Positions 35,461-48,207 of a stretch of 64,000 bases of DNA are shown piece after piece (within the stretch, counting starts at the first letter, position 1; each line of letters opens with the position of its first letter). The position numbers and the translations under genes are program-made. This stretch comes from Exiguobacterium aurantiacum (GTDB lineage: Bacteria > Bacillota > Bacilli > Exiguobacteriales > Exiguobacteriaceae). The DNA lies in contig NZ_CP101462.1 in assembly GCF_024362205.1 (NCBI RefSeq), forward strand, positions 2,700,001 through 2,764,000, given 5' to 3'. The notes beneath the pieces are model-generated. The model saw only the letters and a program-made list of their open reading frames with translations. It made no database searches and had not been told where the DNA came from.

Positions 35461-35494
35461 AAAAAAAACGATCTCACGCGAGATCGTTTTTTGG
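35461..35494. terminator. Bidirectional terminator holding the yitT-like stop codon
   Basis: ACGATCTC and GAGATCGT pair around a 4-base loop, with A/T runs on both sides. The minus-strand stop codon (35474-35476) lies inside the hairpin. Confidence 0.85.
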
Positions 35495-36115
35495 TGCAAG
35501 CTTAGGTTTGATTACTGCCGGTGCCGGCTGTTCGACTACGTCGTCCGTCAACATTTTCGTAACGACACGACCCGCAATCGAGACCGCGAGAAGCGTATAG
35601 AGTGCGTTCGAGAGCGGTAAATAGATGAGCGAGATCGCCAAGACGATGACATCAAACATGATGAGAATCGTCCCGACCGATACGCCGGTCCATTTTGATA
35701 GGCCGAGGGCGAATAAATCATCGCCCCCGGTCGCCCCGCCTGACTTTAAGACGAGACCGAGACCGTAGCCGGTCAGAATCCCGCTCGCGATGGCAGCGAA
35801 CAACGTCGCCGGCCAGACTTGGATGTCAAACGTGAGCAAGTCCAAGCGGTCCCACATCGCGTAGCTGAGCGACAGTGACGCCGCGGCAAGCACGGCTTGC
35901 CCGACGAAACGCCAGCCTTTCCACCAAAGCGCGATTAAAAAGAAGGGGATATCGAGCACGATCATCGAGATCGCCGGATCGATATCAAATAAATAGCGGC
36001 CGAGTAATGCTAACCCGACGAAGCCTCCTTCTGCCAAACCAAACTGTTCATTCAAATAATAATAACCGAACGCCATAATCAGCGTTCCGAGCAATATGGT
36101 AGCAACTCGTTTCAT
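35474..36115 (-). CDS. YitT/YczE-family membrane protein
   Basis: The 213-aa protein has about five helices and the family segments GGFVGLALLGRYLFDIDPA and GLVLKSGGATGGDDLFALGLS. It lacks the C-terminal cytoplasmic DUF2179 domain of longer YitT proteins. Substrate or role is unknown. ATG 36115 follows GGGGAGG by nine bases, but that Shine-Dalgarno lies wholly in a 10-bp hairpin, so translation is probably controlled by the leader RNA. Confidence 0.8.
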   Translation of the reverse strand: MKRVATILLGTLIMAFGYYYLNEQFGLAEGGFVGLALLGRYLFDIDPAISMIVLDIPFFLIALWWKGWRFVGQAVLAAASLSLSYAMWDRLDLLTFDIQVWPATLFAAIASGILTGYGLGLVLKSGGATGGDDLFALGLSKWTGVSVGTILIMFDVIVLAISLIYLPLSNALYTLLAVSIAGRVVTKMLTDDVVEQPAPAVIKPKLAPKNDLA

Positions 36116-36345
36116 TCCGATTGTCCTCCCCGTTTTCAACGGAGAGGAGGATCCTCAGTCGTAGCCGCGGTTCCATCTGTTCCATCTCCGATCTTCCGTT
36201 TGTTGATTTTTTACATTGATGTCGCTTGTAAAAAACTCAACGCTAGAAGTCCGGCAATTGAAACAGAGGCCATGTCCTCTCGGTATCCATAAAGACCTTC
36301 CTTTCCCAAATTGCGCGTAATCATGAAATTATTTTAACACATTTT
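36116..36345 (-). promoter_or_regulatory. Structured leader RNA of the yitT-like gene, T-box-like
   Basis: The 230-base leader holds four visible elements on the minus strand. A 10-bp hairpin (plus 36125-36147, one G-U pair, GAA loop) buries the Shine-Dalgarno. A T-box-like motif TGGAACCGCGG ends at plus 36165. The hexamer CGGAGA (plus 36185-36190) can pair with TCTCCG (plus 36140-36145), the 5' arm of the sequestering hairpin, giving a mutually exclusive fold. Upstream is a 15-codon reading frame with a ribosome binding site. The design fits a translational switch; the ligand is unknown. Confidence 0.45.
36243..36290 (-). CDS. Possible leader peptide (15 codons) before the yitT-like gene
   Basis: ATG 36290 follows GGAAGG by five bases and opens MDTERTWPLFQLPDF, ending in TAG at 36243. 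It lies about 130 bases before the yitT-like start. It could be a real leader peptide or just part of a structured RNA stem. No repeated codon that would suggest attenuation by one amino acid is seen. Confidence 0.2.
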   Translation of the reverse strand: MDTERTWPLFQLPDF

Positions 36346-36370
36346 CACGACTATTTCATTAAATGTATAT

Positions 36371-42876: not shown

Positions 42877-44559
42877 TTACATTTCTTCTGGAGCTTGAAC
42901 GCCGATCAAACGGAGTCCTTCCGTCAACACGATCGTCACCGCTTTGACGAGGGCGAGACGTGACTGTTTGCCTGCATCTTCTTCGAGGACACGGACATGC
43001 CCGTAATACTTGTTAAACGCTTGTGCCAAGTCAAGGACGTAACGGCTGATGATCGACGGTTCACGGCGCTCATGGGCACGCGTGATCACGTGCGGGAACG
43101 CGTTGAGCATCGTTACGACGCCCCACGTGTGATCGTCGTCTGCACCAGTGAACGTCGAGCCGTCGTAGTTGCCTTTACGGAGGAGTGAGTTCGCACGCGC
43201 GTTCGTGTACTGCACGTAAGGGCCCGTCTCCCCTTCGAATTTGAGCATGCTGTCGAGGTCGAACTCGATGTTGTTGATGCGCTCGTTCTTCAAATCGTGG
43301 AAGATGACCGCGCCGACACCGACCATGCGAGCCACGTCGTCCGCGTTCGCAAGTTCCGGGTTCTTCTGGGCGATGTTGCCTTGAGCTTTCTCGATTGCTT
43401 CTTTCAGCACTTCCTCGAGCAAGACGATGCGGCCTTTACGTGTCGACATCTTCTTCCCTTCTTGCAAAATCAAGCCGAACGGCACGTGGTGCATGCCATC
43501 GACGAAGTCGTAGCCGAGTTTACGAAGGACTGAGAACAGTTGCTTGAAGTGAAGCGCCTGTTCGCCACCGACGACGTAGTTCGCTTGGACGAAGTTATAC
43601 GTCTCATGACGATAGACGGCAGCTGCCAAGTCACGAGTCGCATAGAGCGTCGCGCCATCTTTCTTTTTGATTAAGCATGGCGGCAAGTTCTCGTCCTCGA
43701 GCGAGACGACCATCGCCCCTTCACTTTCGACGAGAAGGTTCTTCTCTTCGAGCATGGCGACGACGCGGTCCATCTTGTCGTTATAGAACGCTTCCCCGTT
43801 AAAGCTGTCGAATTCGACGCCGAGCAGGTCGTACACTTTTTGGAACTCTTTGAGCGACTCTTCACGGAACCATGTCCAAAGTTCAGTCGCTTCCTCGTTG
43901 CCGTCTTCAAGTTTCTTGAACCACGCACGGCCCTCGTCTTCGAGTTCCGGTTGTGTCTTCGCTTCTTCGTGGAAGTGCACGTATAACTTCAACAGTTCAG
44001 CAATCGGATGCTCACGGACCGCTTCCTCGTTGCCCCACTTCTTGTAGGCGACCATCAGTTTCCCGAACTGTGTTCCCCAGTCTCCGAGGTGGTTGACCCC
44101 GACGACGTCGTAGCCGTTTTTACGGGCGATTTGGTTGATGGCGTTCCCGATTACCGTCGAACGGAGGTGTCCCATCGAGAACGGTTTGGCGATGTTCGGT
44201 GACGAGAAGTCGGTCACGATCGTCTCGTTTCGTGTCGCGTGCGTCGCATAATCCGCTTTTTCGTCGAGTACCATGTTGATGATTTCTTGCGATACGACGT
44301 CACGGCTCAAGAAGACGTTCACATACGGTCCGGCCGCCTCGACTTTTGTGAACAATTCGTCGTTCAAGTCGTTTGCGATATCCGTCGCGATCATGACCGG
44401 CGCTTTCCGGTAAGCTTTCGCAAGTTGGAAACAAGGGAAAGCAAGATCCCCATGCGCCTCATGTTTTGGTTTTTCAATCAACGCTTCGATTTGGTCGAGC
44501 GTCAACTCGTCCCCGATGACACGGGACAAGGCTTCTGCATATTTGCGTTCATAACTCAT
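42877..44559 (-). CDS. argS: Arginyl-tRNA synthetase
   Basis: ArgS charges tRNA-Arg. The 560-aa protein has the class I HIGH-equivalent SSPNIAKPFSMGHLRS and the KMSKS-equivalent KKMSTRKGRIVLLEE, plus a C-terminal DALR anticodon-binding domain. ATG 44559 follows AAGGAGG; longer frames run into the T-box leader. Expression should rise when uncharged tRNA-Arg accumulates, through the T-box just upstream. Confidence 0.96.
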   Translation of the reverse strand: MSYERKYAEALSRVIGDELTLDQIEALIEKPKHEAHGDLAFPCFQLAKAYRKAPVMIATDIANDLNDELFTKVEAAGPYVNVFLSRDVVSQEIINMVLDEKADYATHATRNETIVTDFSSPNIAKPFSMGHLRSTVIGNAINQIARKNGYDVVGVNHLGDWGTQFGKLMVAYKKWGNEEAVREHPIAELLKLYVHFHEEAKTQPELEDEGRAWFKKLEDGNEEATELWTWFREESLKEFQKVYDLLGVEFDSFNGEAFYNDKMDRVVAMLEEKNLLVESEGAMVVSLEDENLPPCLIKKKDGATLYATRDLAAAVYRHETYNFVQANYVVGGEQALHFKQLFSVLRKLGYDFVDGMHHVPFGLILQEGKKMSTRKGRIVLLEEVLKEAIEKAQGNIAQKNPELANADDVARMVGVGAVIFHDLKNERINNIEFDLDSMLKFEGETGPYVQYTNARANSLLRKGNYDGSTFTGADDDHTWGVVTMLNAFPHVITRAHERREPSIISRYVLDLAQAFNKYYGHVRVLEEDAGKQSRLALVKAVTIVLTEGLRLIGVQAPEEM

Positions 44560-44584
44560 TACAATTCCTCCTTGTAAATTCTTC

Positions 44585-44842
44585 ATAAAAAAAACGCCCT
44601 TTGCACAGATGCAAAGAGACGGGATGACCCGCGGTACCACTCTTCTTGCCTGCTTGACACAGACCGCTTTATCGGTGATAACGGGGGTCCCCCGGCTACG
44701 CCTACTCAGGTTCGGATAGCATCTCAAAAGTGCGTTTCGCGATGTCTGTCAGCCCAGGCTCTCACCAATCCCTAGGTCGCTTTGTTGACGGAACGATCGT
44801 TACTCTCTTTTTCATCGACTTTCGTCTATGTGGTTGAAAAGC
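44585..44842 (-). promoter_or_regulatory. T-box riboswitch of argS
   Basis: On the minus strand the leader has the T-box core AGAGTGGTACCGCG (plus 44630-44643), an S-turn AGTA, AGCGA and GGTGAGAGCC in stem I, and a terminator stem (plus 44586-44622) followed by eight T. A CGC arginine codon (plus 44732-44734) sits where the specifier is expected and fits argS. Uncharged tRNA would stabilise the antiterminator. This accounts for most of the 420 bases between argS and the next gene. Confidence 0.93.
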
Positions 44843-46721: not shown

Positions 46722-46756
46722 AGGGAACGTGTCTTATAACTAAATATCACAACTTT

Positions 46757-46899
46757 TTTATCAAGAGAGACTGAGGGACTGGCCCAGTGACGTCTCGGCA
46801 GCGGGTAACCTGTGCCAAATCCAGCGAGCGGACCGCTCGAAAGATGAAAAAAGTGTTTTCTTGTAGAGAGAGCCTTTTTTCAGAAGGCTCTCTTTTTTA
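46757..46899 (+). promoter_or_regulatory. SAM-I riboswitch (S-box) with terminator
   Basis: The core ATCAAGAGAGACTGAGGGAC, then TGGCCC, GACGTCTCGGCAGCGGGTAACC, GTGCCAAATCCAGC and GAAAGATGA follow the S-box consensus. A terminator stem AGAGAGCCTT/AAGGCTCTCT (46867-46893) with T run follows. High S-adenosylmethionine should stop transcription before metT. Confidence 0.95.
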
Positions 46900-46923
46900 T
46901 TTTAATCAAATGAGGTGAATCGA

Positions 46924-48207
46924 TTGGAACAACCAACAGCTAACAAATGGGCTCTTTTGCCTTTGCTCGTCTTCCTCGTCTTCTTTATCGGGGCAGGCAT
47001 CTACTATAACGACTTTTATAAATTTCCGGTCCTGATCGCGGCGTTGATTGCGGTCATCGTCGCGGCGATGATGACGAAAGGCAGCGTCACTCAGACGGTC
47101 GAGCGCGTCGCCCAAGGCGCGGGCAATCCCGGTATTTTGATCATGGTCTTCATCTTCTTGCTCGCTGGGGCGTTCTCGAGCGTCGCGGAAGCGATTGGCG
47201 CGATTGATGCGACCGTCAATGCGGCGCTGACGTTTTTACCGTCCTCACTTCTACTGAGCGGTTTATTCGTCATCGCGGCTTTCATCTCGATGGCGATGGG
47301 AACGTCGACGGGCACGATTGCCGCCCTCGCCCCGATCGCGCTCGGTATCCATGAAGAAAGTGGCGTCAATATCGCCATCGCGGCGGCTGCCGTCGTCGGG
47401 GGTGCCATGTTCGGGGATAACTTGTCGTTCATCTCGGACACGACGATTGCTGCCGTTCGGACCCAGCGTACGAATATGCGTGACAAGTTCCGGACCAACT
47501 TTTGGATTGTCCTCCCGGCCGCTCTCATCACAATCGTTCTGTTATCGGTCCTGTCGAGCGGAGAATCGACTGTCGATGCAGCCGCGTTCGAATGGTATAA
47601 ACTCATTCCATATCTCGCCGTCATCGCTCTCGCCTTGACCGGGCTGAACGTCATTCTCGTCTTGCTTGGCGGGATTGCCTTGACCGGCATCATCGGACTG
47701 ATTGATGGGAGTTTGGCTGTCACTTCATACGTCACGGCTATGGCGGACGGCATGATGGGCATGGCCGAGATTTCACTCTTGACGCTGCTCATGGGCGGAC
47801 TCGTCGGACTCATCTCGCATAACGGCGGGCTCACGTACTTGCGTGACGCGCTCACGTCGCGGATTCAAAAACGGGCCGGCGCCGAATGGAGCATCGCCGG
47901 ACTCGTCAGTGCGACCAACGTCGCCACGGCGAACAATACAATTTCGATTCTCGTGGCCGGCCCACTCGCGGCGAACATCGCCGACACGTATGAGATCGAG
48001 CGAAAGAAATCAGCGAGTGTGCTCGATATCTTCTCATGTGGCGTGCAAGGGCTTCTCCCATACGGAGCCCAATTGCTCATCGCCGCTGAGTTGACGAACA
48101 CGGCGTCACCGGCGCTCGTGCCGTATATGTTCTACCCGTTCCTCCTCTTCATTTGTGGCGGACTGGCAATCGTCTTTAACTTCCCACGTTTCAAAAAGCG
48201 CGCTTAA
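46924..48207 (+). CDS. metT: NhaC-superfamily transporter, probable methionine importer MetT
   Basis: The 427-aa membrane protein has about 11 helices and belongs to the NhaC antiporter superfamily (AMGTSTGTIAALAPIALGIH; GGAMFGDNLSFISDTTIAAVRTQ). Members placed under S-box control have been predicted to import methionine (MetT), and the SAM-I riboswitch directly upstream places it in that group. TTG 46924 is preferred: AGGTG lies six bases before it. A GTG at 46915 is inside that ribosome binding site. Function is predicted by family and riboswitch, not by substrate residues. Confidence 0.85.
   Translation: MEQPTANKWALLPLLVFLVFFIGAGIYYNDFYKFPVLIAALIAVIVAAMMTKGSVTQTVERVAQGAGNPGILIMVFIFLLAGAFSSVAEAIGAIDATVNAALTFLPSSLLLSGLFVIAAFISMAMGTSTGTIAALAPIALGIHEESGVNIAIAAAAVVGGAMFGDNLSFISDTTIAAVRTQRTNMRDKFRTNFWIVLPAALITIVLLSVLSSGESTVDAAAFEWYKLIPYLAVIALALTGLNVILVLLGGIALTGIIGLIDGSLAVTSYVTAMADGMMGMAEISLLTLLMGGLVGLISHNGGLTYLRDALTSRIQKRAGAEWSIAGLVSATNVATANNTISILVAGPLAANIADTYEIERKKSASVLDIFSCGVQGLLPYGAQLLIAAELTNTASPALVPYMFYPFLLFICGGLAIVFNFPRFKKRA

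Follow-up and report, generated by a model that had tools for sequence, protein, structure and literature searches.

A conserved small reading frame and a candidate relayed translational attenuator ahead of yitT-type genes in Bacilli

What sets the translation of the yitT-type gene of Exiguobacterium aurantiacum, and which part of its leader could act as the sensor? The gene lies on the minus strand of the window, by which we mean the whole stretch of 64,000 nucleotides analyzed here, and an initial annotation made from the letters of the sequence had described its leader as a translational T-box-like switch.

The yitT leader and the T-box question

The elements of the locus relevant to this question are the following (coordinates of the window):

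35474 to 36115, minus strand: yitT-type gene of 213 amino acids, start at 36115, thought to be the gene controlled
36331 to 36359, minus strand: promoter-like site, ATGAAA and TG-TAAAAT with a spacing of 17
36125 to 36131, minus strand: yitT Shine-Dalgarno GGGGAGG, read from the sequence
36124 to 36148, minus strand: hairpin 3:4, with 11 pairs and a GAA loop, masking the yitT Shine-Dalgarno

The assignment of the gene to the YitT type was borne out by Pfam, in which the product matched PF02588 only (E 7.2e-37, 127.2 bits vs a cut-off of 24.3), a family labelled there as uncharacterized. The NCBIfam matches all fell far under their cut-offs and no PDB match at E ≤ 1 was found, and among eight yitT loci, compared by eye with no domain search, no neighbor genes were common to different families. 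According to the available excerpts of the respective reports, very little was known as of 2016 about the YczE proteins, which are related to YitT (PMC4944035), and YitT genes were among several genes mutated in drug-selected Mycoplasma (PMC10240068, PMC13148045), a weak lead at most.

To follow the leader beyond the window, we compared 76 distinct related leaders, far from independent of each other, of which 17 are from the window's genus (g1) and 59 from elsewhere, with 15 distinct ones in the sister genus (g2). The sample of the window's family comprised 38 genomes, 19 for each genus; the leader was matched in 19 of the 19 genomes of the window's genus, and in named records the loci with the yitT protein were from Exiguobacterium in 15 of 15 cases. 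Families outside the window's family are labelled f4, f12, f17, f22, and f28, with f22g23 and f22g50 denoting clades. A class-wide protein search (299 genomes) detected yitT relatives at E ≤ 1e-30 in 60 genomes outside the family: 46 at E ≤ 1.4e-44, a line placed at a gap in the E-values after inspection of the table, with open frames of 215–288 aa, and 14 with a more distant YitT (E 4.4e-34 to 8.1e-31, frames of 291–352 aa). A phylum-wide sample, also of 299 genomes, yielded five yitT matches at E ≤ 1e-38, all inside the class.

The transcript probably starts near 36324, as predicted from the −10-like box TG-TAAAAT ending at 36331; an extended TG together with at least five of the six −10 hexamer positions was found in 46 of the 76 related leaders vs 3% of base-shuffled copies. 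A start downstream of 36190, which the initial annotation had named as an observation that would speak against a switch, is not what this box suggests, since the inferred start lies upstream.

The likeness to a T-box had been drawn from the string TGGAACCGCGG, situated close to an arm that may compete for the Shine-Dalgarno. The string is indeed present but is not conserved, being found in 12 of the 76 distinct leaders and missing from 64, and the TGGNACCGCG string likewise occurs in 12 of the 17 distinct leaders of the window's genus and in none of the 59 others. The covariance search that the initial annotation had proposed as a check was run with Rfam and returned no T-box (RF00230) for the yitT leader, whether the gathering score or E ≤ 5 was taken as the limit, although the same model detected 19 T-boxes elsewhere in the genome at E ≤ 0.001, with 14 exceeding the curated cut-off; nor was a stem I with a specifier loop seen by eye in the leader folds. 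The yitT leader thus resembles T-box leaders in being a leader in Bacilli and in carrying, among some members of one genus, the TGGNACCGCG string, and differs from them in giving no covariance match and in not conserving that string, and we consider a translational T-box binding uncharged tRNA to be an almost negligible prospect here. Translational T-boxes as such are already on record, according to the available text of PMC10651847. Two RNA elements were found elsewhere in the window: an ordinary T-box, one of the 19 counted above (44612–44824, minus strand; 112.2 bits, over the Rfam cut-off), ahead of the gene for an arginyl-tRNA synthetase (PF00750; ORF 42877–44727), and a SAM riboswitch (46755–46850, plus strand; 81.4 bits) preceding a gene for a transporter of the Na+/H+ antiporter family (46915–48207; PF03553).

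Another part of the initial proposal fared better, as the predicted folds do give the leader the look of translational control, its Shine-Dalgarno being enclosed in a hairpin. The 10-bp hairpin that had been described over GGGGAGG exists with its GAA loop and its masking role, but it is longer than stated, its strands UCCUCUCCGUU-GAA-AACGGGGAGGA forming 11 pairs, one of which is U-G. The unpaired probability of the yitT Shine-Dalgarno in the free leader averaged 0.02 in g1 and 0.00 in g2 (genus means) and 0.14–0.21 in four clade groups elsewhere, the site being half masked (0.48) in f22g50. The ribosome-binding site of yitT is therefore predicted to be masked by the hairpin, as an attenuator of the erm type requires.

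A small frame conserved ahead of yitT

Comparison of the leaders before yitT homologs, a further check suggested at the outset, revealed a small frame as the conserved element:

36243 to 36290, minus strand: uORF1, 15 codons, MDTERTWPLFQLPDF, TAG then C

This 15-codon frame, which the initial annotation had mentioned with its own ribosome binding site as a second possible sensor, proved to be the most conserved and informative part of the leader. Its DNA, ATGGATACC...TTCTAG, is preceded by AAAGGAAGG. In the window's family uORF1 was found in 38 of 38 genomes, always with 15 codons and the consensus MDTER[TAI]xxLFxLPDF*, starting 163–176 nt upstream of yitT. Outside the family, a uORF1 with an ending close to [IV]WK[RQ][YFC]DLSx[TI]* was present in all 46 sampled Bacilli genomes with a yitT relative at E ≤ 1.4e-44. 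The upstream DNA of 23 of these 46 was read, and in all 23 the frame closes with some version of TIWKRYDLSYT, as exemplified by MCPRRTIPQRTIWKRYDLSYT, MLPRRTIWKRFDLSDT, and MGPYKTVWKRYDLSYI. A search with the WK..DLS pattern produced 65 matches in 64 of 398 genomes, with 0 of 398 for the reversed control pattern. In 43 of the 46 genomes the match was on the strand of yitT, 165–231 nt before the protein match, and in the other three (L119, L120, L128) uORF1 was recognized by reading, not by the pattern. The context was established for 60 of the 65 matches: 43 lie before yitT by coordinates and 14 more by reading, and three (L172, L175, L176) fall by chance inside unrelated stretches. Among these 60, the three chance matches aside, the uORF1-type peptide occurred only before yitT, and the pattern gave no match in the 14 genomes with the distant YitT.

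When aligned at the stop codon, WPLFQLPDF of g1 and WKRYDLSYT of the other leaders exhibit W, F/Y, and L at equal distances, from which, together with their shared position ahead of yitT, we infer that both are members of one peptide family. Judged from substitution patterns, uORF1 is under selection at the peptide level: outside the family, pN/pS computed on the last 10 codons of 24 distinct sequences was 0.11 in frame vs 4.26 and 0.74 in the other frames, and within the window's family it was 0.21 (18 distinct sequences). The proposed switch before yitT looks old.

The stop codon of uORF1 together with the next base reads TAGC in 76 of the 76 distinct leaders; the stops of yitT itself, at the 56 loci reaching the gene end, are TGA in 32, TAA in 22, and TAG in two. 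Since clades differ in how UAGC is predicted to pair, we take the invariant UAG-C as a sign of arrest at termination, and in combination with the conserved peptide it suggests that the ribosome is arrested during termination. Amino-acid starvation sensed through codon runs was considered and set aside: no run of a single codon is kept, the uORF1 of g2 contains no Trp, and Lys takes the place of the Arg of RT in L123 and L129. The +X+ motif associated with macrolides was not seen in the uORF1 consensus.

An RNA-only riboswitch or RNA thermometer, for which uORF1 would be secondary, could draw on the stable structure of the leader, which folds better than its shuffles (z −5.0, with 0 of 200 shuffles as good), and on nucleotide-invariant stretches, namely ACCGAGAGG in the uORF1 of the family and ATGAATACCCAAACGG in g2. 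The strong coding signal of uORF1 stands against it, as does the Rfam search of the window leader, in which a plasmodium snoRNA (E 1.3) was the sole match at E ≤ 5; across the window leader and 11 relatives, no known RNA family reached its gathering score. We regard an RNA-only sensor as very improbable.

Additional features were observed in the DNA of this frame. The codons ACC GAG AGG (36276–36284, minus strand) are invariant in the 38 family genomes despite synonymous options. Most g2 leaders contain GAGAGGAC again at their yitT Shine-Dalgarno, where it could pair with arm 3, a possible further alternative pairing. In seven f4 leaders (L121, L124, L127, L128, L131, L173, L178), CGAAGGA, read as Arg-Arg codons, is common to uORF1 and to the second small frame introduced below, and by eye it is complementary to downstream TCCT segments.

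Pairing in the leader and a second small frame

Between uORF1 and yitT, the following elements were delimited:

36243 to 36266, minus strand: arm 1, the last codons of uORF1, which pairs with arm 2 in the folds
36200 to 36242, minus strand: apex of the uORF1 hairpin, a variable stem-loop in which one sub-clade shows compensatory changes
36177 to 36197, minus strand: arm 2, GGAAGATCGGAGATGGAACAG, containing the Shine-Dalgarno of uORF2 (CGGAG)
36048 to 36176, minus strand: uORF2, ATG at 36176, 42 codons, ending 68 nt inside yitT

The duplex 1:2 has a mean z of −6.7 against shuffles in the 17 leaders of the window's genus. By eye, the end of uORF1 varies synonymously between genera along with its partner strand, CCGGACTTC standing opposite GAAGATCGG with one A-A mismatch in g1 and CCTGATTTTT opposite AAAAATCAGG in g2. 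In the apical stem-loop, a T-A pair is replaced by A-T in 6 of 17 leaders and the neighboring T-A by G-C in 6 of 17, with one row non-pairing. Double-compensated pairs within clades numbered 0 to 11 per clade, some of them outside the four arms, and we consider the covariation support for the arms moderate.

The second frame, uORF2, overlaps the start of yitT in another frame and has a further in-frame ATG at 36185. When chosen automatically, the best ATG with a Shine-Dalgarno lay 52–77 nt past the uORF1 stop in 74 of the 76 leaders, the exceptions being two f17 leaders (L170, L171) with a poor Shine-Dalgarno; in L125 the Shine-Dalgarno is too near its ATG. With the start set by hand in five leaders, the spacing became 52–73 nt in 76 of 76. 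Such a start was equalled by 7% of shuffles on average, ranging from 0 to 43% (the worst being L129). The frame relative to yitT is identical in 68 leaders and differs in eight, and is thus not fixed, and the uORF2 peptide appears, by eye, unlike between families. In the f22g23 clade, pN/pS over the first 15 codons (17 distinct sequences) was 0.39 vs 0.98 and 1.78 in the other frames. In all 76 leaders the uORF2 frame crosses the strand hiding the yitT Shine-Dalgarno, and all partners of that Shine-Dalgarno in local folds are reachable by a ribosome on uORF2. In g2 the uORF2 ATG is itself paired with uORF1, so that the constraints of an ATG and of pairing overlap there. At the same start, ATGAATACCCAAACGG is invariant in the 15 distinct g2 leaders (L097–L115), and beyond the ATG this invariance is unaccounted for by the uORF1 hairpin. 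L069 and L070 match arm 2 and the uORF2 start over 26 bases of DNA; the match in L069, when read, looked accidental and within coding sequence, and this lead was rejected.

Taken together, these features make the yitT leader, in our assessment, probably a leader-peptide translational attenuator relayed from uORF1 to uORF2 to yitT. This reading builds on the conservation, the coding selection on uORF1, the pairing potential, and the position of uORF2, which are properties of the aligned sequences; the stalling or arrest, the signal or ligand, the direction of the switch, and the relay are what we infer. At rest, the end of uORF1 would pair with the region of the uORF2 ribosome-binding site, and the second hairpin would hide the yitT Shine-Dalgarno, keeping yitT off. 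Upon a signal, a ribosome would stall at the end of uORF1 or close to it, arrest during termination being the candidate event, and would keep the first hairpin open, allowing ribosomes to initiate at uORF2. Translation of uORF2 through the masking strand would then leave the yitT Shine-Dalgarno free and yitT translated.

The switching was modelled by folds in which the codons covered by a ribosome were masked, with unpaired probabilities given as clade means (32 leaders in the window's family). With a ribosome on the last uORF1 codons, the uORF2 Shine-Dalgarno rose from 0.21 to 0.60–0.67 in g1 and from 0.34 to 0.57–0.69 in g2, the yitT Shine-Dalgarno remaining at 0.00–0.03 in both genera; with a ribosome on uORF2 codon 7, the yitT Shine-Dalgarno reached 0.60 (g1) and 0.41 (g2). 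Other clades gave mixed results. In f22g23 a ribosome on uORF2 raised the yitT site from 0.15 to 0.36–0.45, and masking of uORF1 opened the uORF2 site at one codon only, to 0.63 at best from 0.45 in the free leader, the value for the last codons being 0.33. The uORF2 ribosome barely shifted the yitT site in f4 (0.14 free, 0.18–0.20), the site of f22g50 was half open regardless (0.48 free, 0.48–0.53), and the uORF2 site of f17 remained closed under uORF1 masking (0.00 to 0.14). It is thus in the window's own group that the relay finds its best support.

A shorter route is offered by a plain erm-type attenuator, in which a stall on uORF1 frees arm 2, pairing 2:3 frees the yitT site, and the likeness of arm 2 to a Shine-Dalgarno yields uORF2 as a by-product. 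The initial annotation had anticipated such an exchange, with CGGAGA (36190–36185) capturing TCTCCG; both sequences are there, but the exchange is not favored in the window's genus, where the duplex 2:3 (−9.3 kcal/mol, 17 leaders) is weaker than that of shuffled arms (z +1.3), and it is also weak in g2 (−12.2 kcal/mol, z −0.8). In line with this, the yitT Shine-Dalgarno stayed paired with the uORF1 end masked in 10 of 10 family leaders tried, that is, masking uORF1 leaves the site closed within the window's family. Outside it, the 2:3 duplex has clade means of −19 to −29 kcal/mol (z −1.1 to −3.1), comparable to 1:2 and 3:4. In 7 of 9 clade representatives, arms 2 and 3 of the same leader surpass the mean of swapped arms in pairing; in L116, by eye, CTAACTACGAAAG in arm 2 stands opposite CTTCGTAGTTAG in arm 3. 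Masking near the uORF1 end brought the yitT site to 0.31 in f22g23 (0.15 free) and to 0.29 in f4 (0.14 free). Complementarity between a Shine-Dalgarno-like arm and an anti-Shine-Dalgarno arm is expected under any function, and the coding selection on uORF2 in one clade speaks against a mere by-product. As a general explanation the erm-type exchange appears unlikely, though it is the most serious competitor; outside the window's family, a direct 2:3 exchange may operate alongside or in place of the relay.

The geometry by which each frame opens the next site would also need no stall, as in constitutive translational coupling, where uORF1 and uORF2 merely set the level of yitT with no sensing. 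Coupling alone leaves unexplained both a peptide conserved across families, with the in-frame pN/pS given above, and the TAG-C found without exception, and we judge it improbable.

Meaning of the leader and comparison with known systems

Going beyond the relayed attenuator, uORF1 might represent a new and ancient family of arrest peptides, stalling at UAG in response to one small molecule and passing the event on via uORF2. We advance this more specific reading only tentatively; the molecule could be a substrate of YitT or a ribosome-binding compound that YitT removes. If true, the family would provide a handle on the function of the widespread YitT membrane proteins, and a conserved peptide of this sensor-like kind would permit a direct assay of the signal, namely a screen of compounds for stalling on a frame of 15 to 21 codons.

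In the open-access literature searched, we recognized no paper reporting a leader peptide or attenuator for yitT. Short peptides conserved up to the stop codon, of the TnaC and SpeFL type, suggest arrest during termination, and uORF1 is likewise short and conserved up to its stop. It differs from them in that those are other peptides and act on transcription termination.

Mechanistically, the nearest systems by analogy are ermA/ermB and mgtQ/mgtB. As described in the available text of PMC8092293, the mgtQ frame before Salmonella mgtB overlaps stem-loops 1:2 and 3:4, alternative to 2:3, with 3:4 hiding the ribosome-binding site of the transporter gene. The likeness to the yitT leader, drawn from that description only, consists of a small frame overlapping stem-loops that may be alternative and of predicted masking by 3:4; unlike the yitT leader, mgtQ is described there as a single frame that works through ribosome-destabilizing acidic residues.

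For the erm genes, the available text of PMC8274638 reports two leader peptides each, ermAL1 and ermAL2 before ermA and ermBL and ermBL2 before ermB. In one of two models cited there, a stall on ermAL1 activates ermAL2, and a stall on ermAL2 leads to ermA translation, which comes close to the relay proposed here. In ermB, induction is impaired when a non-start codon replaces the start codon of ermBL2, and an ermBL-ermBL2 fusion is not inducible by erythromycin, which disfavors a simple relay in that system; the same text describes the interplay of the two small frames in ermA and ermB as not understood (PMC8274638). So far as these excerpts go, the differences from the yitT leader lie in the leader peptides and in the gene served, an rRNA methyltransferase vs an uncharacterized membrane protein, and for yitT no drug is known as a signal. 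What the systems have in common is two small frames ahead of a gene with a masked start site, and the yitT leader would add to ermA and ermB a natural case of two small frames preceding one gene.
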